Source: Pirellulaceae bacterium
Lineage (GTDB): Bacteria; Planctomycetota; Planctomycetia; Pirellulales; Pirellulaceae
Length of the DNA: 64,000 nucleotides
Direction of reading: 5' to 3'
Assembly: GCA_026004795.1 (NCBI GenBank)
Contig: BPJV01000006.1
Coordinates: 62,001-126,000, forward strand
The position numbers were made by a program, and so were the translations under genes. Below the pieces are notes generated by a model. That model searched no databases and was not told the origin of the DNA. It saw only the letters and a list, made by a program, of their open reading frames with translations. Shown piece after piece: positions 38,587 to 62,339 of this stretch (the stretch's first letter is position 1; every line of letters begins with the position of its first letter).

Positions 38587-38988
38587 CGTAGGTCACTCCT
38601 CTAAAAAAGGATCGAGTCCACTGGAGAGGGCGCGTTCGCTACGCACCGATCACTGCCCCCATGTCCGATAGCATCAGGCACGCATCTTCGTGGCGTCTCT
38701 GTGGCCTGGCCGAGCCTTCCACAATCGTCTCTTCATTGTTGATTGGATGAAAAGCCCGGAGGTGGCCAAACCAACATAAGTGGGGTATTTCGCAATCTGG
38801 AAGCTTGGAATGGCCCGCGCGATTGATTACCATGGTTAGTTGCAACTCGTAGTCGGCTGTTTCCTGCGCAATGATCATTGGACGTGGACTAGGCCCGTGT
38901 TTGAGGCGCATGGGCTTGATCGACGGCAGCAACAACCGGTTCTTGTCTTTTACGGAACAGAGGGTTTTTGAGCAAGCTGAGGGATGCA
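38587..38988. other. Divergent intergenic region
   Basis: About 400 bases between the epimerase gene (minus) and the Gly/Met-rich protein gene (plus). No gene is supported on either strand. The plus frame starts with TTG at 38968 but the ATG at 38989 has GAGGGA before it and starts the signal peptide. Confidence 0.4.
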
Positions 38989-39870
38989 ATGAAAACGAAA
39001 CTGTGGTGGTGCGCAAGCGTAGTGGTAGCGGTCTGTGCGGGTCGTGGGGTCGTAGCCGCCGAGCCGACGAAAGGAATCGCCAGTGCGGAAGCGGCTGGGG
39101 AAAACGTTGAGGCGGTTGAGCTGTTTCAAGGAATTCAAGAGGGAAAGATCGAAGTCAACTTTATCCCCAAAAATGCGGCCGAGGCGACAGTAGTCATCAA
39201 GAACAAGACGGACAAGCCTGTCGATGTTGAACTTCCAAGAACCTTTGGTGCGGTTCATGTGCTTGGCCAGCTCGGCATGGGTGGCATGGGCGGCATGGGT
39301 ATGGGAGGTATGGGCGGCATGGGTATGGGAGGTATGGGCGGCATGGGAGGCATGGGCGGCGGCCAAGGCCTAGGCGGTGGCATGGGAGGCATGGGCATGG
39401 GCGGAATGGGTATGGGCGGCATGGGCGGCATGGGAGGTATGGGCGGCATGGGAGGCATGGGCGGAATGTTCCGTGTCGAGCCCGATAAGTCGCGGAAGTT
39501 GAAAGTCCCCTGCGTGTGTCTGGAACATGGCAAGCCGGATCCGAATCCTCGTATGAAGTACCAAATCGTTCCGATTGAACAAGTGAATGCCGATCCACGT
39601 GTGGCGAAGCTGTGTGAGTTGTTGGGCGAAGGCAAAATTGCTCAAAACACTGCCCAAGCTGCGGCGTGGCACCTTGCCAATGGGGTGAGTTGGGAGGAGT
39701 TGGCCCGCATGAATCGTGTCGAATCGAAGTACACCGGCAACATTCGGTTCTTCAATCCGATGGAATTGCGCCATGCCTTCCAGCTTAGCGCTGCCCTGAA
39801 CTCCGAGTACCAAGACTCCCTGGCCGGGGAGGCTTCGCCTGGTGAAACCGACGTTTCGTTGGCAGACTGA
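38989..39870 (+). CDS. Exported protein with Gly/Met-rich repeat insertion
   Basis: 293 aa from the ATG at 38989. A signal peptide (MKTKLWWCASVVVAVCAG) is followed by a domain containing IEVNFIPKNAAEATVVIKN and VELPRTFGAVHVLGQL. It is interrupted at about residues 97-164 by GGM/GM units with 21 methionines. The domain then resumes with LKVPCVCLEHGKPDPNPR and a helical tail (QAAAWHLANGVSWEEL). The second half resembles a recurrent planctomycete secreted domain, and the repeat looks like an expanded surface loop rather than a terminal tail. The Met residues could bind soft metals, but that is speculation. A terminator follows. Confidence 0.82.
   Translation: MKTKLWWCASVVVAVCAGRGVVAAEPTKGIASAEAAGENVEAVELFQGIQEGKIEVNFIPKNAAEATVVIKNKTDKPVDVELPRTFGAVHVLGQLGMGGMGGMGMGGMGGMGMGGMGGMGGMGGGQGLGGGMGGMGMGGMGMGGMGGMGGMGGMGGMGGMFRVEPDKSRKLKVPCVCLEHGKPDPNPRMKYQIVPIEQVNADPRVAKLCELLGEGKIAQNTAQAAAWHLANGVSWEELARMNRVESKYTGNIRFFNPMELRHAFQLSAALNSEYQDSLAGEASPGETDVSLAD
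39278..39466 (+). repeat. GGC-ATG low-complexity repeats within coding sequence
   Basis: Tandem 9-bp and 6-bp units based on GGCATGGGAGGTATG encode (Gly-Gly-Met)n and Gly-Met. A single break around GGGQGLGGG divides two blocks. Slippage between the units would change the loop length without a frameshift. Confidence 0.8.
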
Positions 39871-39980
39871 CTTCCCCTGGCGTGTGCCGTGGCGCGACGT
39901 GTCGCCGTGATGCAAAGAATTGGCTAGCGTTCGCGGTCAGGCGGCGGTGAACTCGGTTCCTTCTTGCTTTCCGGCTACGG

Positions 39981-40023
39981 GGCCGGTCGGTTGCTCCTGG
40001 CATCGACCGGCCTGATCATTTTT
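39981..40023 (+). terminator. Rho-independent terminator
   Basis: Perfect 9-bp GC-rich stem GGCCGGTCG/CGACCGGCC (39981-39989 with 40004-40012), 14-base loop, then a TTTTT run at 40019-40023. It ends transcription of the Gly/Met-rich protein gene 110 bases after its stop and isolates it from the tRNA gene. Confidence 0.8.
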
Positions 40024-40281
40024 GTTGAAGCGAGCGGCATCCGTTGCTCCTGACCGGTAAAGGCTACGGCTGGTTCTGCCGCAAGGCCCGACTTTCTCCA
40101 CGGTCTATGTTTCGGCACCTGGCGGCGGCATTGGTCGCTGCCTGTGTGGTGCTCGTTGATCAAAGCATTGCGCCGTGAGCGACGGCGGAAACCAGGTGTC
40201 CGCGACGAAGGAGAAGCTCGCCGAACCCGTCTCCTGCGTCGGTTTGCGGTCGTGCCCCAACGATGGGGCCGCGGCGGATTC
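40024..40281. other. Region between terminator and tRNA-Sec
   Basis: About 260 bases with no supportable protein gene. A long minus-strand frame crosses it and the tRNA, but that is an antisense artefact. The tRNA promoter probably lies here; no consensus pair is obvious. Confidence 0.35.
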
Positions 40282-40374
40282 GGAAGCGTTCGTAGTCTGG
40301 TGACTGCCCCGGTCTTCAAAACCGGTGAGGCATCATCCATGGTGCCTGGTGGGTTCGATTCCCATCCGCTTCCG
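40282..40374 (+). tRNA. selC: tRNA-Sec (anticodon TCA), selenocysteine tRNA
   Basis: 93 nt without an encoded CCA. The acceptor GGAAGCG pairs with CGCTTCC (7 bp). The T arm is 6 bp (GGTGGG/CCCATC with one G-T pair) around TTCGATT, so acceptor plus T arm make the 13-bp stack expected of tRNA-Sec. The D stem has 6 bp (GTAGTC/GACTGC) with a TGGT loop, longer than in normal tRNAs. The anticodon stem CCGGT/ACCGG carries the loop CTTCAAA, giving anticodon TCA, which reads UGA. The variable arm has 7 bp (AGGCATC/GGTGCCT). The discriminator is G. All of this fits bacterial tRNA-Sec and excludes tRNA-Ser. No selA, selB or selD is in the window. Confidence 0.93.
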
Positions 40375-40386
40375 CTTTGTTGACGG

Positions 40387-41211
40387 CTAGGCAACAAGGA
40401 GTTGGGTCCACCCAGCGCTGCTCTCGTGCAGCAGATGAATATTTCCGGGGGAGCGATCCGCAATCGCTAGAGAGGTCGGATAGGGCCCGTGGGGGAAGAT
40501 CCGCAGACGCCATTGCGAGGCATCGATCCAGTGGTTGAAACGGCAGCTCGCATCATCCTCGATCTGTAGCAAGAGGTCGGGGGCAATGCGGGTGGGGGCG
40601 AACCATCGATCGACGGGCATGGGGACAGGGAGTTGAATCTGGTGCATGGTACCTCCAATGCCGATGCCCAAACCTTTTAGTAGCGCCTCTTTGCAAAGCC
40701 ACAACAAGACCATGTCCGTCCCTGCCGAGTGCTTGCGATCAGTGTCGACTCGCGCGTCGTTTGCGGCGGTTTCTTCTGGAGCGAGGATCCGGGATTGCAG
40801 GCGAGCGATCTGCTGAGCCTCTGCCGCTTCCATGTCGACTCCCACCGGAGCGTCGGCGCACAGCAGCACCGCCCAAGCGGCGGTATGCGAGAGGTTGAAA
40901 TGCAGTGGCGATCCCTTGGTGGGGTTGGCGATGGCTGGTTTGCCGCGACGACCATAAGAAAACGTCAGGTCGCGGGCGTCGAGCTTGAGATAGGCGCTGA
41001 GGATGCGCCGCATCTTTCCACGTGCTACCCACCAGCGTCGCCGCAGATGCTCGGTGGCCAGACGTTGTCCGCGCGCCAATTCTGCGGGCGTCAACACGGT
41101 TTGCCAGTATCGCGTCTCCTCGGCAGAGACATCCAACCGGTAAAACCACACGTCCAGCCGCTTGACTGGCCACTCCCGCGACGGAATCTGCCACAACTCC
41201 ACATCAACCAT
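40387..41211 (-). CDS. Sfp-type 4'-phosphopantetheinyl transferase
   Basis: 274 aa from the ATG at 41211, which overlaps the mntR stop by eight bases; the longest frame would begin inside mntR. Catalytic motifs are GVDMEAA (the GxDxE magnesium site) and LWLCKEALLKGLGIGI (the WxxKEAxxK type). The N-terminal half has RWWVARGKMRRIL and FSYGRRGKPAI of the Sfp group. It transfers phosphopantetheine to carrier proteins of fatty acid, polyketide or peptide synthesis; no carrier is nearby. Translation is probably coupled to mntR. Confidence 0.92.
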   Translation of the reverse strand: MVDVELWQIPSREWPVKRLDVWFYRLDVSAEETRYWQTVLTPAELARGQRLATEHLRRRWWVARGKMRRILSAYLKLDARDLTFSYGRRGKPAIANPTKGSPLHFNLSHTAAWAVLLCADAPVGVDMEAAEAQQIARLQSRILAPEETAANDARVDTDRKHSAGTDMVLLWLCKEALLKGLGIGIGGTMHQIQLPVPMPVDRWFAPTRIAPDLLLQIEDDASCRFNHWIDASQWRLRIFPHGPYPTSLAIADRSPGNIHLLHESSAGWTQLLVA

Positions 41212-54069: not shown

Positions 54070-54543
54070 CTGCATGGCCCTATGGAGGCACAGCTGTGGT
54101 TCGTTTGTTGCTTACTCAAAGAGGTTGGACAGCGCGAATGTTCTCCGAACTGATCAGGGCGGGACGTCCGCAGCGCCATCTGTGTGTGATTGTTGATGGT
54201 GTTTTCGGGATTCTGAGAAAGGGGGCACCGTGGCGCGACCTTTCTAAAAAGCTGGTGTCCTGGTCAACCGTTCGGAGGCTATTTGATAAATGGAATTCGG
54301 ACGGCATGCTCGACGAATTCCTAGGGCTTCTGCGACAGGCGTTGATCGATAGCAGCAAGATCGAGGACGATTTGGGGTGAATCGACGGAATTATTGATCA
54401 CGCTTATCAAGGTGTTGGTGACGGAGGAAAAAAGGGCCCCGGAGGAACCGCCCGATTCGGCGCAAGACCGCTCTTACGCGGGACGCCGAGACCCACATTC
54501 TCTGTGACGGCCAAGGCCATTCCACCACCACTGCGCGTTTTTG
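54070..54543 (+). pseudogene. Decayed IS5-type transposase (DUF4096 N-terminal part)
   Basis: The first part is in one frame to 54380: AGRPQRHLCVIVDGVFGILR and GAPWRDLSKKLVSWSTVRRL, matching the DUF4096 N-terminal half of IS5-group transposases. A stop follows. Similarity then continues in a second frame (DHAYQGVGDGGKKGP) and a third (THILCDGQGHSTTTARF), which correspond to the GGKKG and KIHLLCDGQGHP segments around the first catalytic Asp. The remaining DDE region is absent, replaced by the repeat array starting near 54548. Terminal inverted repeats were not found. Confidence 0.75.
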
Positions 54544-54547
54544 TACC

Positions 54548-55445
54548 CACCTCCCCCGTGAGGATCACACCATCACGGACCTAATCCGCGCTGATCCATC
54601 AACGCCTTCTTCCCCACCTCCCCCGTGAGGCTCACACCATCACGGACCTAATCCGCGCTGATCCATCAACGCCTTCTTCCTCACCTCCCCCGTGAGGCGA
54701 ATACCAACACAGGCATTTCCTCCACCCCACCTTCCCGACTCACGGGGAGGTCGGCTCGGGAATTACCACTACACGATCCAAGCGAGCCGGCGCAGAGACC
54801 ACCACCAAGCGATGCTTCACCAACGATTCCCGAGCCGGGAGGGGGCCACATGGCGCAGCGGTTCCCGAGCCGGGAGGGGGCCTAACGACGCAGTTTCGCC
54901 CGAAAGCCTTGCCGAAGAGCCCTCCCCCGGCTCCGCCGACCCCTCCCGTTGGAAAAGTCTGGTTATTGAGTAGCTTTGCAAGCCGTGGTTTTTCCAACGG
55001 GAGGGGTGGGAAGACTTGGAATGCTCACCTCGTGCGTTGCCTTATGCTAGGGCGTCTCACAGCTGTCGCCTTCTTCCCCACCTCCCCCGTGAGGCGAACA
55101 CCAACATAGCCATTTCCTCCAACCCACCTTCCCGCCTCACGGGGGAGGTCGGCTCGGGAATTACCACCACAGGATCCAAGCGAGCCGGCGCTGAAACCAC
55201 CACCAACCGATGCCTCACCAATATTCCCGAGCCGGGAGGGGGCCACAAAACTCCGTTTTGCCCGAAAGTCGTGCCGAAGAGCCCTCCCCCGGCTGCGCCG
55301 ACCCCTCCCGTTGGAAAAGTCCGGTTATTGAGTAGCTCCCCGATTCACGGTTTTTCCAACGGGAGGGGTAAGGGTGATTTTGGAACTGCGTCGCCCCCTC
55401 CCGTCCTTCTTCGATGTTTTCTATTAGCGCGGGTTTACTCATAAG
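54548..55445. repeat. Composite palindromic repeat array, block 1
   Basis: Begins with two 67-bp tandem copies (starts 54548, 54615, third start 54682) based on CACCTCCCCCGTGAGG. Two composite units follow, each made of a B hairpin, a linker, one or two C modules (CCGAGCCGGGAGGGGGCC) and a D hairpin. B is a perfect 17-bp inverted repeat in the second unit (55080-55096 with 55133-55149). D is a perfect 18-bp inverted repeat (54939-54956 with 54990-55007; 55301-55318 with 55352-55369). Both use the linker type with GAATTACCAC. No gene is supported inside; frames that cross it are translations of the repeats. Confidence 0.88.
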
Positions 55446-55534
55446 TTGTGATGGAACCACGACGGAGGGGTGGGGAGTTTGGGAGCTGTGTCGAGGACTT
55501 CCGTTGCACAAGTTTGCTGCCTCGTTTGCCTCGT

Positions 55535-55760
55535 TCCCTCGTTCCTAGGCTCTGCCTGGGAACGCGCTGCATCAGAGGCTCTGCCTCGCGATCCCTTGCG
55601 ACCGCATAAAGCCCCGCCATGGGTGACTCCAACTGGCGATGCGCAGGCGGAGCCTGCCAGCAACATCTGGTTCCCAGGCAGAGCCAGGGAACCAGAGATA
55701 TTGAGTAGCTTCGCCATTCGCGGTTTTTTCCCACGGGAGGGATGGGGAATAAAAAACTCG
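55535..55760. repeat. GTTCCCAGGC-type repeat module with partial D element
   Basis: Two facing copies of the GTTCC(C/T)AGGCTC-GCCTGGGAAC palindrome, with the conserved AGAGGCTCTGCCTCGCGATC arm and a GCAGGCGGAGCCTGC arm between them. A remnant of the D hairpin follows (ATTGAGTAGCTTCGCCATTC near 55690-55720). Nothing coding is seen from 55446 to 55915. Confidence 0.75.
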
Positions 55761-55915
55761 GCCATCCCCCGTCCTTCGAACTGCCCGTTTCACGTTAGTT
55801 CACGCACAAGCTTCAATGGAACCACGATGGGAGGAGTAGAATACGGTTCTGATGCCACGGACGATCTCGAAAAGGAAATGCCAATCGAAGAGGAAGGACG
55901 GTAGGCAGGCGAGGC

Positions 55916-57676
55916 TCAATCGGCAAGCGTCGCCGCCCGTAGGTAGGGAACCATGGCGTGAGCGGCGTCGACAACCAACGTGCGATAGCGTTCCGCCTCT
56001 GCATCGCTCAACCGCTCCCCCGTAACCACTACCTGCACACGGAACACCGCCGGTTGCAATTTCACCAGTCCCAGCAACTTCGCCCCCCCCCTCCGCTCGG
56101 CAGCGTGCACACGCCAGGCATCTTGGCCGGTCGCATCCATGCTGACATACCACAAGTACGTGGGCCCATGGACCGCATCTTGCCACATCACTTCGTCCAC
56201 CAGCATTTCCCCGCCGTCGGTCCCTGGCGACGGTTCGACGCGCTGAGTCTCCCGCCGTACCAAGGTTCTGCCGGGGCCCATCAAGGCCCATTCCGCGGGC
56301 ACGTAACGGGCAAATGGAAACTCCACCGCCACTTGCACGGGAAACTCCTCCGCCCGATAGGTCCACCCGGCGGCGAAGCCGGGATGGACCAACGTCGCCA
56401 CCGGATGGCGGATCAGCCGGAAATCGACGCGCTGCATCCCCGACCAGGGCGTGGGCAACCGCGACTCGGTAAAAACGCTTGCCGCCGTGGACGGATCCAA
56501 CTGCAGATGCGGTAGCGTGCGAGCGCGCGTCGGATCGCTGGCCAACCGCCATCCCCCGCCGATCAACACCCCCGTGGCGACCACCAGGCTGGCCCAGAAT
56601 CCCCCGCGTCGCCACGCCTGCGGCAATTCCGCTGGCCGCGCCTCGTGCTCGGTGCGGGACGATCGACTGCGGCGACCGGAATCGGCCGGGTCGGCGCCCG
56701 GCCAGCACGCAACGCGATTAAAAAACGTGTGCCAACCGCCACTGGTAACCGTACGAATCGGAAACGGCTTGAACACCTCACGCAGCCCTACGTAGGTCAA
56801 CGCCAGAGCAGCGCATTGAAGCCCCATCACCCCCACGTGCAGGACCATCAGCCGTCCGCCGTGCGACAGATCCACCTCGAGCCACTCCAACCCGAGGCTC
56901 ACCACCATCAATCGCGCCACGTCTCCCCACCACTGCCACAGGGGCACCGAGCCCATCAACAGCACGGCCGTAATCAAACTCACGCGGCCAACGACGGCCA
57001 TCCCCGCGGCGATTCCCAGCAACACGACCAGGCCGCCCATCGAATTGGTCAGCACTTGATCGACCAACAGCCGCTTGGCGGCCAATTCCCACACGATCCC
57101 ATCCAAGGCGTGAGGCACTCCTACGGCATCCAGCATGGCGCTGGCCGCGCTCGCCCCCCACCGTTGCAACCAGAACTCCCACCGCTCGGCGCCCCCCAGC
57201 GTCGGAAGCGTGATCGCCGTCAACGTGATCCAGGCAACCACTTGATGCCACGGATTGCCCCGCCAACGGACGAGCGCCCAGGCCGCGAACATTCCCAGGG
57301 CACTGACCTGAGCCAGCCAGGGAGAAACAATCGCGGCTGCCGCCACCCCCAACGCGACGGTCACTACAGCCACCCCCAACGCGGCCCTCCACCGGCGCGC
57401 CACCATCGCTCCGTCCCGTTTCCCGTGACGCCACACCTGCCAGGCGACCAAGCCCAGGGCCAGCGGCGCCCAGCGGTATTGCCGATCGATGGCCAGTTGC
57501 CTTACTTGCTCGACCAGCAACGGTGATAAGCCGATCAGGCCGGCCATCAGCAACACATCTTCGGCACGCCACCGCCGCGGCACGGAGATCGCCGGCTCCG
57601 GCAACGATCCACAGGCATCGGCGGCAGGGGACTGGCTGGCGGTCGAAGTAACTTCCACGGACACGTTGGAATTCAT
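55916..57676 (-). CDS. Exosortase-like membrane protein lacking the catalytic cysteine, with EpsI-like domain
   Basis: 586 aa from the ATG at 57676. Residues about 45-300 form eight or so transmembrane helices with exosortase layout: GVPHALDGIVWELAAKRLLV resembles the GVxxxxxGxxIE lead-in, VARLM (Arg255) matches the conserved Arg, and DLSHGG (His272) the conserved His. Where exosortases have the nucleophilic Cys (AEACSG), this protein has LTNSMGGL (210-216), with no Cys within 60 residues. The C-terminal half (about 330-586) is an exported EpsI-like domain (FPVQVAVEFPFARYVPAEW). Exosortases sort PEP-CTERM-type proteins alongside exopolysaccharide genes; the neighbouring gmd fits, but this copy is probably inactive or mechanistically different. 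Confidence 0.75.
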   Translation of the reverse strand: MNSNVSVEVTSTASQSPAADACGSLPEPAISVPRRWRAEDVLLMAGLIGLSPLLVEQVRQLAIDRQYRWAPLALGLVAWQVWRHGKRDGAMVARRWRAALGVAVVTVALGVAAAAIVSPWLAQVSALGMFAAWALVRWRGNPWHQVVAWITLTAITLPTLGGAERWEFWLQRWGASAASAMLDAVGVPHALDGIVWELAAKRLLVDQVLTNSMGGLVVLLGIAAGMAVVGRVSLITAVLLMGSVPLWQWWGDVARLMVVSLGLEWLEVDLSHGGRLMVLHVGVMGLQCAALALTYVGLREVFKPFPIRTVTSGGWHTFFNRVACWPGADPADSGRRSRSSRTEHEARPAELPQAWRRGGFWASLVVATGVLIGGGWRLASDPTRARTLPHLQLDPSTAASVFTESRLPTPWSGMQRVDFRLIRHPVATLVHPGFAAGWTYRAEEFPVQVAVEFPFARYVPAEWALMGPGRTLVRRETQRVEPSPGTDGGEMLVDEVMWQDAVHGPTYLWYVSMDATGQDAWRVHAAERRGGAKLLGLVKLQPAVFRVQVVVTGERLSDAEAERYRTLVVDAAHAMVPYLRAATLAD

Positions 57677-57762
57677 CGTCGATAGGGCAAATCGTATTAT
57701 GAGAGCCAAAAACCTGGGGCGTGACAAACCAATCAACCTTGGGCGGCAAGCACGCCAGTCAC

Positions 57763-58785
57763 TCAACGGCCTGGCAGCGACCGTACCAACTCGCGCTGCA
57801 CCGCCATATCGTGCTCGACCATCTCCACGACCATCGCTTCGAACGACTTTTCGGGCTGCCATCCCAGCAACCGGCGGGCTTTTCCTGCGTCCCCCACCAA
57901 ACGGGCCGGGTCGGCCTTGCGCTGGAATCGGGAATCGAAGACGACATACTCCGTCCAGTCTAAATCCAAATGGCCGAAGGCAATCTCCAACCAATCGCGC
58001 ACGCGATGCAGCGTACCAGTAGCGAACACGCAGTCCGTCGGCGCGTCCGCTTGCAACAGCGCGAAAAAGCCGCGCACATAATCGGGTGCGTACCCCCAAT
58101 CGCGCTGGGCATCGATGTTCCCCAGCGGCAGTTCCGTTTGCAGCCCCAACTTGATCCGCGCCGCCGACTGCGTGATCTTCCGCGTCACGAACGATTCCCC
58201 CCGTCGCGGCGATTCATGGTTGAAGCAAATTGCGTTGCACGCGAACAGTTCGAACGCTTCACGATAGATGCGCACCATGTTGGTGGCGAACGACTTGGCC
58301 GCGCCGTACGGCGTGATCGGCACATGCGGCGTCTCCTCGTGCTGAGGAACGACCGTCGGATGCCCAAAGATCTCGCTACTGCTGGTATGAAGAAATCGTG
58401 GCGAGGGACGCAGGTCACGCATCACTTCTAACAGTCGCAACGTCCCCATAGCGGTGAAGTCGCACGTCGATTCGGGGATCTCGAAACTCACCCCCACGTG
58501 ACTTTGGCCCGCCAGGTGATAGACCTCGTGCGGTTGGATGTCGACCAACAATCGTCGGAGGGTGGTTAAATCCTCCAAGTCGGCGTAGTGGAGAAACAGC
58601 CGCTGGCGATAAACACTGTCATCACAGGTCAAATGATCCAACCGCGGCCGCACCGTCCGACTACTTCGCCGCACGATTCCATGCACCAGGTAGCCTTCGG
58701 CCAGCAGCAATTCGGCCAGGTAGCTTCCATCCTGCCCCGTGATGCCCGTGATCACCGCCCGCTTGGAGTTGTTTTTGCTGCCCAT
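57763..58785 (-). CDS. gmd: GDP-mannose 4,6-dehydratase
   Basis: 340 aa from the ATG at 58785; the longer frame would begin with a TTG. The NADP-binding start is AVITGITGQDGSYLAELLL, with FLHTSSSEIFG and the YGAAKSF active-site YxxxK. NHESPRRGESFVTRKI is the GMD signature. It makes GDP-4-keto-6-deoxymannose for fucose, rhamnose or perosamine. It is 86 bases upstream of the exosortase-like gene on the same strand, so the two are likely transcribed together and tie the sorting protein to polysaccharide. Confidence 0.95.
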   Translation of the reverse strand: MGSKNNSKRAVITGITGQDGSYLAELLLAEGYLVHGIVRRSSRTVRPRLDHLTCDDSVYRQRLFLHYADLEDLTTLRRLLVDIQPHEVYHLAGQSHVGVSFEIPESTCDFTAMGTLRLLEVMRDLRPSPRFLHTSSSEIFGHPTVVPQHEETPHVPITPYGAAKSFATNMVRIYREAFELFACNAICFNHESPRRGESFVTRKITQSAARIKLGLQTELPLGNIDAQRDWGYAPDYVRGFFALLQADAPTDCVFATGTLHRVRDWLEIAFGHLDLDWTEYVVFDSRFQRKADPARLVGDAGKARRLLGWQPEKSFEAMVVEMVEHDMAVQRELVRSLPGR

Positions 58786-58969
58786 CCGCTGCCGTACCAA
58801 CCAATGCTGAATCGCCGCACCTTTCCCATCACCAATATCCAATTATTGCTCGCGATTTCCCTCCGCGATACCCTTTTCGGCCCATTCTCGCTCTTCCTTC
58901 CCCATCCATTCTTGCTCTCCCTTCCCCGTCCATTCTTGGTCTCCCTTCCCCAAAGACACTCAAATCCCA

Positions 58970-59830
58970 GCGCCCCACCTCCCCTGGGAGGCGAGAACCC
59001 GCACCCAGCTCACCACGGTGTTATCGTGCGCGTCAAAAAAGCGCCCCACCGCCCCCCTGTGAGGCGAGAACCAGCACCGTCGTTTCCTACTCTGAACCAT
59101 CGCGGCCCTCTTCCCCACCTCTCCGCGGAGGCTCACACCATCACGGACCTAATCCGCGCTGATCCATCAACGCCTTCTTCCTCACCTCCCCCGTGAGGCG
59201 AATACCAACACGGAGATAATCCGCGCTGAATCATCAACGCCTTCTTCCTCACCTCCCCCGTGAGGCGAATACCAACACGGGCATTTCCACCACCCGACCT
59301 TCCCGCCTCACGGGGGAGGTCGGCTCGGAAGCAGCAAGTCCATCGGACCATCTACCTGGTCGCTGGCCAAAGCTTTGCAGCTACCATCCCTTTGGTCCCC
59401 GAGCCGGGAGGGGGCCACACGACGCAGCGGTCCGCGAGCCGAGAGGGGGGCCTAACGACGCAGTTTCGCCCAAAAGCCTTGCCGAAGAGCCCTCCCCCGG
59501 CTGCGCCGACCCCTCCCGTTGGAAAAGTCTGGTTATTGAGTAGCTTTGCAAGTCGTGGTTTTTCCAACGGGAGGGGTGGGAAGACTTGGAATGCTCACCT
59601 CGTGCGTTGCTTTATGCTATGGCGTCTCACAGCTGTCGCCTTCTTCCTCACCTCCCCCGTGAGGCGAATACCAACTCAGGCATTTCCTCCACCCAACCTT
59701 CCCGCCTCACGGGGGAGGTCGGCTCGGATGCAGCAAGTTCATCGGACCATCTACCTGGTCGCTGGCCAAAGCTTTGCAGCTACCATTCCTTTGGTCCCCG
59801 AGCCGGGAGGGGGCCACTGTTAGATAGGTC
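58970..59830. repeat. Composite palindromic repeat array, block 2
   Basis: Several CACCTCCCCCGTGAGG half-elements (from 58976) lead to two composite units. The first has B arms at 59251-59267 and 59304-59320, the GCAGCAAGT linker, C modules near 59400-59455 and D arms at 59509-59526 and 59560-59577. The second has B arms at 59650-59666 and 59703-59719 and the same linker, but ends after one C module near 59820, next to the DUF559 gene. Directly upstream (58850-58965) is a triple of near-identical CTTCCCCATCCATTCTTG phrases. No gene is supported in 58786-59876. Confidence 0.88.
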
Positions 59831-59876
59831 CGGACGTCCGCCCAATTTCGTGCGGCCAAACGTCTTACTGGATCGA

Positions 59877-60293
59877 CTACTTGTCCTTTCGCTTCACCCG
59901 TATCCCCGATGGTCTCGGCGCGCGGCGATGGTAGGAGTAATCGAGGCCAAGATGAGCGGCAATAGCATGTCCAACAGCATCGACATTCTCCAACACGTCG
60001 CTGTTGTGGAATCTTAATACCTTCCACCCAAGGCCCTCTAACACCGCTTGACGGCAAACGTCGTTTTCGATCGTGTTGTCATGGTAATCGCCGTCCAGCT
60101 CAATAATCAGTTTTCTCCCTACGCACGCGAAGTCGGCGAAGAACCGGTCGACTGGGTGTTGCCGGCGAAATCTTAAGCCGCACAGCTGTTCATTGCGCAG
60201 GTAAGCCCAAAGTAGCGTCTCTGCCGGTGTCGCTTGGCGGCGAAGCTTGCGAGCTACTGCCTTCGTCCGGCTATTGCGTGGAGCGTCGCGCAT
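59877..60293 (-). CDS. DUF559 endonuclease-domain protein
   Basis: 138 aa from the ATG at 60293; the frame is open 27 codons further. Family features occur in order: KLRRQATPAETLLWAYLRNE, GLRFRRQHPVDRFFADFACV, the catalytic-like LIIELDGDYH (Glu, Asp, His of the PD-(D/E)XK/Vsr-type core) and GWKVLRFHNSDVLENVDAV. DUF559 proteins are Vsr-like nucleases, common in single copy near mobile or repetitive DNA. All key residues are present. It lies in the middle of the repeat blocks, with repeats within 60 bases of its 3' end. Confidence 0.88.
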   Translation of the reverse strand: MRDAPRNSRTKAVARKLRRQATPAETLLWAYLRNEQLCGLRFRRQHPVDRFFADFACVGRKLIIELDGDYHDNTIENDVCRQAVLEGLGWKVLRFHNSDVLENVDAVGHAIAAHLGLDYSYHRRAPRPSGIRVKRKDK

Positions 60294-60534
60294 GGAACAC
60301 TGCGGCAGCCAAGCCGCCCCTCCTGGTGAATAGGTTTTCCCAAATTGCAATATAGAGTCACCAGCATTTCTCACGGGAGGAGTAGCGGATACCGCGGCCG
60401 CTGCCCCTTTTCCGGTGAAACAGCCTGGACATTGTCTGGCTTCACGGTTTGCTGACTATTTTAACCGGAGCGGTAAAATGTTTGGTAGCGTCGTCCACCC
60501 TCTATGGAAACGTTGGAGCATGGGATGGCTTCAT
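60294..60534. other. Non-repeat stretch upstream of the DUF559 gene
   Basis: About 240 bases without recognisable repeats or genes, probably containing the DUF559 promoter; the AT-rich part (60330-60365) is the likeliest site. Confidence 0.35.
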
Positions 60535-60970
60535 TGCCTCGTTCCCAGGTAGAGCCTGGGAACCAGAGAATTGGCTTTCAGCCAACGATGATCATTCTGC
60601 CGTCCCTCACCTCGTGCGTTGATTCAGGCGTCGCCGCCACGAGCTTCCCACCCTTCCCCACCTCCCCCGTGAGGCGAATACCAACACGGGCATTTCGACC
60701 ACCCCACCTTCCCGCCTCACGGGGGAGGTCGGCTCGGGAATTACCACTACGGCATCCAAGCGAGCAGATGCAGAAACCACCACCAAGCGATGCCTCACCA
60801 ACGATTCCCGAGCCGGGAGGGGGCCACATGGCGCAACGATTCCCGAGCCGGGAGGGGGCCACATGGCGCAACGATTCCCGAGCCGGGAGGGGGCCACATG
60901 GCGCAACGGTCCCCGAGCCGGGAGGGGGCCACATGGCGCAGCGGTCCCCGAGCCGGGAGGGGGGCCTAAC
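60535..60970. repeat. Composite palindromic repeat array, block 3, with 35-bp tandem
   Basis: A short GTTCCCAGG module (60538-60570) is followed by a B hairpin (perfect 17-bp arms 60660-60676 and 60713-60729), the GAATTACCAC linker, and then the C module in five tandem copies of exactly 35 bp, starting at 60807, 60842, 60877, 60912 and 60947. Each copy has CCCGAGCCGGGAGGGGGCC followed by ACATGGCGCA; copies differ by a few bases. No D hairpin follows. Confidence 0.88.
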
Positions 60971-61227
60971 GACACGACCAGCCACACAATACGCACGGCC
61001 AGCTTGATCGGCAAAGCTTGACAGGCAAGCCGACGTGAAATATCCATGAATACAGGGAAACCGTCTTCCCACCCCTGTTCATCGATTACAATTGGGCAGA
61101 CGCGAGGGGTGACGATTTCGTCACGTCTTCGCAAGATGGCAATCGCGTTGGTATGCAGCCCCGAGTTTTCGCAGCGTGTGAGACCTATGCCCCATCTTGG
61201 ATAAGTGACGGCCGCCAAGGTTGACAT
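60607..61227 (-). CDS. Possible remnant gene running into repeats
   Basis: Low-confidence frame of 206 codons starting with ATG at 61227. The first 77 residues read like a normal protein (RWGIGLTRCENSGLHTNAIA, TPRVCPIVIDEQGWEDGFPV). After about 60995 the frame is simply the translation of the C and B repeats (LPARES, PPPGSG). One explanation is a gene truncated by the repeat array. I do not recognise the domain. It may not be expressed. Confidence 0.3.
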   Translation of the reverse strand: MSTLAAVTYPRWGIGLTRCENSGLHTNAIAILRRRDEIVTPRVCPIVIDEQGWEDGFPVFMDISRRLACQALPIKLAVRIVWLVVSLGPPPGSGTAAPCGPLPARGPLRHVAPSRLGNRCAMWPPPGSGIVAPCGPLPARESLVRHRLVVVSASARLDAVVVIPEPTSPVRREGGVVEMPVLVFASRGRWGRVGSSWRRRLNQRTR

Positions 61228-61714
61228 TCGGCGTGGTAGAGGCGGCCTCTCGTCTGGAGTCCCCGCCCATCACCCCCACCTTGGAGTCCTTCCCTATCCA
61301 CCAAATGGGACTATGCTATGCTGCAGTACTCGGCGGATGGACGCCAAACGCCGATAGTCGCCCAAGGCCGTCGCAACCGATGAGACACTCCGCCAAGGAG
61401 CCGCGTGCGATCGGTCGGGAGGCCGCCATCCAACGCCGCTTGGCGATCAATAACCATTACCAATATCCGGTCTTCCCAGCACCTGTAGGTCATTCTCGCC
61501 CTGCAGATCGCACGATCGGCCGGGTGGACCGAAACGAACACGAGATTACCACCGCGTGGTATCCTAGTGACGCCACCGCGTCGAAGTAGGACACGTTCCC
61601 ATGGGAGGCACCTCAAGTGTCACCCACGGGAACGAAGTACGCGCCGACCCAGCCAATTTTCCGTGGCATTTTTCGCATTTATTCCAATCCGTGGTAACGC
61701 AGAGGCCTCGCCCT
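61228..61714. other. Non-coding stretch between repeat blocks
   Basis: Nearly 490 bases with frames on both strands (61221-61589 plus; 61311-61616 minus) that lack any recognisable motif or ribosome binding site. It contains a CGTTCCCATGGGAG/GGGAACG dyad near 61590-61632. I see nothing supportable as a gene. Confidence 0.35.
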
Positions 61715-62230
61715 TTCCCCACATCCCCCGTGAAGCGATTATCAACGCTGGGATAGCGCGATCCATTGCTGGCTCAGACGCTGCTGCCTCTTTCCCCACC
61801 TCCCCCGTGAGGCTCACACCATCACGGACCTAATCCGCGCTGATCCATCAACGCCTTCTTCCTCACCTCCCCCATGAGGCGAATACCAACTCAGGCATTT
61901 CCTCCACCCCACGTTCCCGCCTCACGGGGGAGGTCGGCTCGGATGCAGCAAGTTCATCGGACCATCAACCTGGTCGCTGGCCAAAGCTTTGCAGCTACCA
62001 TCCCTTTGGTCCCCGAGCCGGGAGGGGGCCACATGACGCAGCGGTCCCCCGAGCCGCGAGGCGGGCCACACGACGCAGCTTCACCGGAGAGCCTTGCTGA
62101 AAAACCCTCCCCCGGCTGCGCCGACCCCTCCCGTGGGAAAAGTCCGGTTATTGAGTAGCTTTGCAAGTCGTGGTTTTTCCAACGGGAGGGGTAGGGGTGA
62201 TTTCGGAACTGCGCCGACCTCTCCCGTCCT
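61715..62230. repeat. Composite palindromic repeat array, block 4
   Basis: Half-elements at 61720 and 61798, then a unit with B arms at 61865-61881 and 61918-61934 (one mismatch), the ATGCAGCAAGT linker, two C modules (about 62012-62070) and D arms at 62124-62141 and 62175-62192 (one mismatch). The same order B, linker, C, D as in blocks 1 and 2. Confidence 0.88.
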
Positions 62231-62339
62231 TCAAAATGCTCGATTTACGCAAGTTCACCCACAAGCTTCAATGTCACCACGACGGGAGGGGTGAGGAGAT
62301 TGGGAGCTGTGTCGAGGACTTCCGTTGCAGAAGCTTGTT

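Follow-up and report, generated by a model that had tools for sequence, protein, structure and literature searches.

A selenocysteine tRNA gene with a predicted 7/6 acceptor/T stack in a Pirellulaceae bacterium, and the position of the stem junction among planctomycetes

The window, a stretch of 64,000 nucleotides on contig C6 of a Pirellulaceae genome (BPJV01000006.1), contains a tRNA-Sec(tca) gene called by ARAGORN at positions 40282-40375. This gene matches the Rfam model RF01852 (tRNA-Sec) over its full length, with a score of 77.9 bits and an E-value of 2.6e-14, and is the sole match above the gathering score in the window. The runner-up in the genome reaches 44.0 bits, for a curated cut-off of 47. 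The stems span positions 40282 to 40373 and are closed by the discriminator G73, directly followed by CTT; the CCA end is not encoded in the gene. The hallmarks of tRNA-Sec are all present (anticodon UCA, a D stem of 6 bp, a long variable arm and G73), and the locus is a genuine selenocysteine tRNA gene. Downstream, the minus strand carries two genes, one 4'-phosphopantetheinyl transferase-like and one iron-dependent-repressor-like, with no evident link to selenium. Elsewhere in the window, a plus-strand frame with a Gly-Met repeat (38968-39870; TRF array 39273-39468) has no Pfam match, and dispersed and tandem repeats are scattered over about 8 kb (54486-62232); their units measure about 67 bases and their copies 85-282 bases.

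Table 1. Coordinates of the tRNA-Sec gene, of its parts and of the selenocysteine genes located elsewhere in the genome. Positions without prefix are those of the window.
Feature	Location	Strand	Basis
tRNA-Sec(UCA) gene, including discriminator G73	40282..40374	+	ARAGORN, RF01852 77.9 bits, fold z -5.56
5' acceptor strand GGAAGCG, 7 bp with 40367-40373	40282..40288	+	MFE fold
U8, unpaired in the window tRNA-Sec	40289..40289	+	Fold and comparison
D arm, 6-bp stem, UGGU loop	40292..40307	+	MFE fold
Anticodon loop CTTCAAA, anticodon TCA 40316-40318	40314..40320	+	Sequence, ARAGORN
Variable arm, 8-bp stem, 4-nt loop	40328..40347	+	MFE fold
T arm, 6 bp; predicted outermost pair G48 (40348)-C66 (40366)	40348..40366	+	P(48-66) 0.94, comparative counts
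3' acceptor strand CGCTTCC	40367..40373	+	MFE fold
selA	C8:123477-124859		503.9 bits (cut-off 267.9)
selB	C1:407498-409357		332.4 bits (cut-off 242.25)
selD	C8:121279-122157		238.9 bits (cut-off 125)
SelD/oxidoreductase fusion frame	L074:9154-11472	-	Domain and profile matches

The unconstrained minimum free energy (MFE) fold of the tRNA reaches -44.0 kcal/mol, compared with a mean of -27.65 for shuffled sequences (z -5.56), and none of the 200 shuffles was as stable as the native sequence. It is composed of a 7-bp acceptor stem, a 3-nt connector (UUC), a 6-bp D stem with the loop UGGU, a 5-bp anticodon stem, an 8-bp variable stem and a 6-bp T stem. The 8/5 arrangement does not apply here: U8 and C66 form neither a Watson-Crick nor a wobble pair, and the pairing probability is 0.94 between residues 48 and 66 and 0.00 between residues 8 and 66. 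From this model we infer that G48 pairs with C66. In most 8/5 relatives, residue 8 is a C or a U paired to G66 or A66. A preliminary description, made from the sequence alone, had placed a tRNA-Sec at 40282-40374 and proposed a covariance model as a check; the limits of the stems and G73 agree with these coordinates, and the identity is borne out by ARAGORN, by RF01852 and by the fold. The anticodon TCA in the loop CTTCAAA was correctly read, and the 6-bp D stem with a TGGT loop and the 7+6 acceptor/T stack are reproduced by the unconstrained fold. Only the variable arm, described as 7 bp, has to be corrected to an 8-bp stem.

The window tRNA shares with the selC product of Escherichia coli, which is of the 8/5 form, the UCA anticodon, the 6-bp D stem with its 4-nt loop, the long variable arm, G73 and the 13 layers of the acceptor/T helix. 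The two differ at the eighth layer: C8 faces G66 in E. coli, whereas U8 faces C66 in the window tRNA, where G48 can take C66 to give a 7/6 form. The 7-bp acceptor stem is also found in the 7/5 tRNA-Secs described for Epsilonproteobacteria, Cloacimonetes and other bacteria (PMC4607533, PMC5330540), but these have a 5-bp T stem and a stack of 12 bp, bulged in some cases, whereas the window tRNA keeps 13 layers with a T stem predicted at 6 bp. The tRNA-Sec forms named in the accessible text of four papers are 8/5, 9/4, 7/5, 8/4 and 9/3 (PMC5330540, PMC7609411, PMC4607533, PMC8450103). In the accessible text of the open literature searched, including with phrases such as '6 bp T-stem', a 7/6 tRNA-Sec was not found. 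None of the stem terms sought is present in PMC8124441, and planctomycetes are unmentioned in the accessible sections of a 2026 review (PMC13188914).

At the curated cut-offs the window contains no selA, selB or selD, as the preliminary description had stated. That description had proposed a search of the whole genome, where the lack of all three genes was to count against it; all three were detected above their cut-offs on contigs C8 and C1 (Table 1), and the set selA, selB, selC and selD is thus complete in a single genome. Both the core and the N-terminal domains of SelA are present, as are the GTPase domain and the last winged-helix domain of SelB. SelD forms the C-terminal portion of a protein in which it is fused to a pyridine-nucleotide oxidoreductase domain. 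This fusion exceeds the cut-off of the selD family TIGR00476 and scores 428.9 bits, below the cut-off of 700, with TIGR04369 ('oxidoreductase/SelD-related fusion protein', fusion_not_SelD). It retains the motif CRGCGCK, which we take to be the counterpart of the Cys17/Lys20 motif of E. coli SelD. Planctomycete Sec genes and putative selenoproteins have already been published (PMC4807772). The systems described there have selA, selB, selD and putative selenoproteins in common with the window genome, and in isolate P1 the Sec genes are not co-localised, as here; the accessible text of that paper does not deal with the fold of tRNA-Sec.

In a set of 60 genomes, 29 contain a tRNA-Sec (counted as present when a match exceeds 60 bits). 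It was detected in 28 of the 32 genomes with selB over the cut-off and in one of the 28 without selB, against 28/36 with selA and 28/31 with selD over the cut-off; selA and selD are looser markers of tRNA-Sec than selB. Among picked tRNA-Sec-bearing genomes elsewhere in the class and in the phylum, selB passes the cut-off in 27/28 and 43/44, respectively. A tRNA-Sec occurs in 228 of the 392 genomes of the phylum and in 105 of the 218 genomes of the class. Its presence is ordinary for the phylum, and the weight that the preliminary description gave to mere presence was overrated. Several genomes show other arrangements. In G012, selD, tRNA-Sec, selA and selB follow each other in that order on one strand (L084, C490:1628-6049). 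G014, G019, G028 and G039 (L342, L043, L037 and L042) have selA and selB over the cut-off and no tRNA-Sec above 60 bits; their tRNA-Sec may be divergent or lost to assembly gaps (G014 is 73% complete). G016 has a tRNA-Sec with mismatched G8/A66 (L066, G016:C42:8901-8996) and a TGA-containing selD (L059, G016:C23), with neither selA nor selB over the cut-off, which suggests either a decaying system or an assembly gap.

This last genome suggests that relics may occur nearby, and the window gene could itself be a tRNA-Sec gene outliving its system, a pseudogene or an odd tRNA-Ser. It is solitary and located away from selA, selB and selD, and a scan of positions 39870-40500 revealed no promoter-like or terminator-like site. 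Against this stand the intact stems, G73 and the covariance score, the presence in the same genome of selA, selB, selD and a conserved UGA-containing gene, and a near copy of the tRNA (91% identical) in the congener G002. A relic is, on this evidence, hardly credible.

The UGA-containing gene encodes a SelL-related peroxiredoxin (C3:111664-111972), with an in-frame TGA at the active site (HRHLGUPTCR). It passes the cut-off of the family NF040769 (SelL-related redox protein) with 169.3 bits for a threshold of 120, and in the congeners G007, G008 and G010 a U occupies the matching site (HRHLGULPCR). Eight genomes were searched for PF00578 genes whose domain contains a single TGA; such genes were found in the window genome (G000), G001, G002, G007, G008 and G010, and none was seen among the matches listed for G012 and G022. 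In the four SelL-related genes, synonymous differences amount to 5/33 in the stretch from codon +6 to codon +13 downstream of the UGA and to 303/468 elsewhere, these counts being non-independent same-residue comparisons. The reduction is as expected if a hairpin such as GACGC-AGUU-GCGUC is needed at this place. This hairpin is present in the predicted fold of three of the four family members, and the z-scores against shuffled sequences, which range from +0.1 to -2.3, are weak; those of the gene in the window genome are -0.75 and -1.0. The reading of UGA as selenocysteine, claimed in the preliminary description, is strongly supported at the level of sequence by selA, selB, selD and this conserved gene. 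Of the in-frame UGA with a SECIS hairpin that it had proposed to look for, the UGA is conserved and the synonymous sites following it are constrained, while the z-scores of the hairpin are weak.

Concerning other candidate selenoproteins, a second family of TGA-containing peroxiredoxins shows no such constraint (28/49 synonymous differences vs 401/655), and a further peroxiredoxin has a Cys in G000 and G012 and a U in G002 and G010. A TGA-containing peroxiredoxin-like frame of G002 (L076:173-979, C593) ends about 170 bases from a convergent tRNA-Sec gene. Isolate P1 has a selenoprotein fdhA according to PMC4807772, whereas none of the five PF00384 (molybdopterin enzyme) matches of the window genome contains an in-frame TGA. 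A codon-usage scan of the window and six loci gave TGA frames in three of the seven that resemble neighbouring genes sharing the frame or antisense frames, none of them convincing. Comparing the TGA contexts of 128 sequences all against all recovered, among the matches listed, the Sec-type SelD of relatives and frames antisense to tRNA-Sec; a sequence search against solved structures gave two weak matches.

To place the eighth layer in context, residues 8, 48 and 66 were compared in 175 planctomycete tRNA-Secs. This census is a non-random sample: it comprises all 29 matches above 60 bits of the 60-genome set, 89 sequences from the phylum scan (29 automatic loci and 60 rows picked for family spread, from 228 positive genomes) and 57 from the class scan (27 automatic loci and 30 picked rows, from 105 positive genomes). 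Residue 66 can pair only with residue 8 in 69 sequences (8/5), only with residue 48 in 30 (7/6), with either in 14 and with neither in 62; in 51 of these 62, G8 and G66 occur with G48. In the 60-genome set, the 29 sequences consist of 17 C8/G66, nine U8/C66/G48 (one of which is the window tRNA), two U8/A66/A48 and one G8/A66. The same-family relatives of the window genome include clean 8/5 tRNA-Secs, and the remark on the 7/6 split in the preliminary description was worth pursuing. Among the U8 sequences of the census, G48 accompanies C66 in 28/28 and A66 in 19/36, an association with a Fisher probability of 7e-6 in which kinship is uncontrolled. G48 is common in general (158/175), so C66 may meet it by chance. 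A kinship-controlled test of 48 against 66 was non-significant with five independent pairs on starred branches, which are too few; residue 48 follows residue 66 in one to three of these pairs and never goes against it. The clearest cases are two tRNA-Secs of the family f118 (the family codes are the tool's own labels), which have G48/C66 and differ at both positions from their A48/A66 kin; the other ten f118 and f121 rows of the SelB tree have U8/A66, nine of them without G48.

These counts bear on a simpler reading, according to which the tRNA is functional, U8 and C66 form an unpaired mismatch, G48 and C66 do not pair and the stack is of 12 bp (7/5), leaving a single nucleotide over on either side. 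The 62 sequences where residue 66 pairs with neither partner, mostly G8/G66, suggest that an unpaired eighth layer is tolerated and that the pair may be dispensable, and 12-bp acceptor/T stacks have been published for other bacteria (PMC5330540, PMC4607533). However, the 48-66 pair is predicted with a probability of 0.93-0.96 in ten of the 12 folded 7/6 sequences, including the window tRNA (it is low in G372, 0.03, and G056, 0.57), and the combination U8/C66 without G48 was found in 0/28. Moreover, seven residues separate the T stem from G73 in the 12-bp forms of PMC5330540, whereas the window tRNA with a 5-bp T stem would have eight. We consider the mismatch unlikely and retain the predicted G48-C66 pair.

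A pattern scan of genome contigs for tRNA-Secs with C66 and G48 recovered at least 120 loci; both residues were required by the pattern, and these counts are therefore no test of the pairing. Among the 120 loci listed, 79 have U8, 11 have A8, 22 have G8, seven lack a recognisable acceptor and one is incomplete. Among the 80 listed with labels, the U8 and A8 loci are labelled Planctomycetota or Chloroflexi/Dormiibacter, apart from single loci under the labels Acidobacteria, Vicinamibacteraceae and unidentified. Still among these 80, the G8 loci carry the labels Tissierellia, Clostridia, Halanaerobium, Lentibacillus, Deltaproteobacteria, Zixiibacteriota and Thermoflexus, with one labelled bacterium only and three Planctomycetota. 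Four loci on contigs labelled Chloroflexi or Dormiibacter (L265, L267, L279 and L286) are tRNA-Sec 3' halves without a matching 5' acceptor half and look like partial copies; L265 and L267 each share a contig with an intact tRNA-Sec.

Phylogenetic trees of SelB and SelA were compared with the tRNA forms. In the SelB tree of 82 rows (including four of the 21 rows found outside the class), the 7/6 form occurs in 24/24 classified rows outside a starred clade of 57 rows and in 6/54 classified rows inside it, among 8/5 kin. The fold label switches seven times on this tree, at least five of these switches being forced by starred branches, for a mean of 24.0 with shuffled labels (quick search). A careful SelB tree of 56 rows agrees with it on the common rows, and the SelA tree (quick search, G528 left out for insufficient columns) shows the same grouping. 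Positions in the 56-row SelB tree suggested beforehand that G323 (f21) would be 7/6 and G410 (f1) 8/5, and both turned out so; G433, located near the 7/6 genome G056 in the 56-row tree, turned out to be 8/5. One could propose that a 7/6 tRNA needs a specially adapted SelB and that both must travel together, as the lineage with 24/24 rows, which spans two families with SelA concordant, might suggest. This proposal is improbable in our view: the 7/6 form is also found within the other SelB clade, so a special SelB seems unnecessary, and the uniform pattern of the first lineage is explained by shared descent.

The genus of the window genome and two other f1 genera fall in a SelB group that otherwise consists of family f21, and the f21 rows G364, G573 and G605 adjoin the f1 row G012. 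As this genus has its SelA and SelB from a lineage otherwise found in f21, in which every classified tRNA-Sec is 7/6, the Sec machinery of this genus was probably acquired by horizontal transfer; from the trees we infer both the transfer and its direction. Joint transfer of selA, selB and selC has been published for another bacterium (PMC1273633).

Taken together, it is likely that the locus is the working selC of a Sec-decoding bacterium, with G48-C66 as the eighth layer (7/6) and a machinery probably obtained by horizontal transfer. By analogy with established bacterial biochemistry, the tRNA would be charged with serine by SerRS, SelA would convert Ser to Sec with selenophosphate from the oxidoreductase-fused SelD domain, and SelB would deliver Sec-tRNA to a UGA followed by a hairpin, for example in the SelL-related gene on C3. 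The 13-layer acceptor/T helix would be retained, its eighth layer lying in the T arm (48-66) instead of between residues 8 and 66. In the class, A66 occurs mostly beside U8, as does G66 beside C8 (8/5), and C66 next to U8 or A8 is accompanied by G48 (7/6); a few tRNAs fit neither. A sequence with U8, A66 and G48 needs a single base change to flip, which makes the 8/5 and 7/6 forms neighbours in sequence, and related bacteria seem to make the switch easily. We give about even chances to the broader idea that base 66 sets a movable junction (8/5 or 7/6), with repeated flips without a change in SelB type, and with a G/G mismatch in many planctomycetes.

The predicted shift of the junction would be a modest novelty among bacterial tRNA-Secs. 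If a movable junction is the right reading, SelA and SelB would read the length of the 13 layers and not an 8-bp acceptor stem. The planctomycetes, a single phylum, naturally comprise 8/5, 7/6 and mismatched forms, and with their SelA and SelB sequences it becomes testable whether the two proteins sense the acceptor stem or the stacked helix as a whole. Models based on the 8/5 fold would cover only part of the planctomycete diversity.
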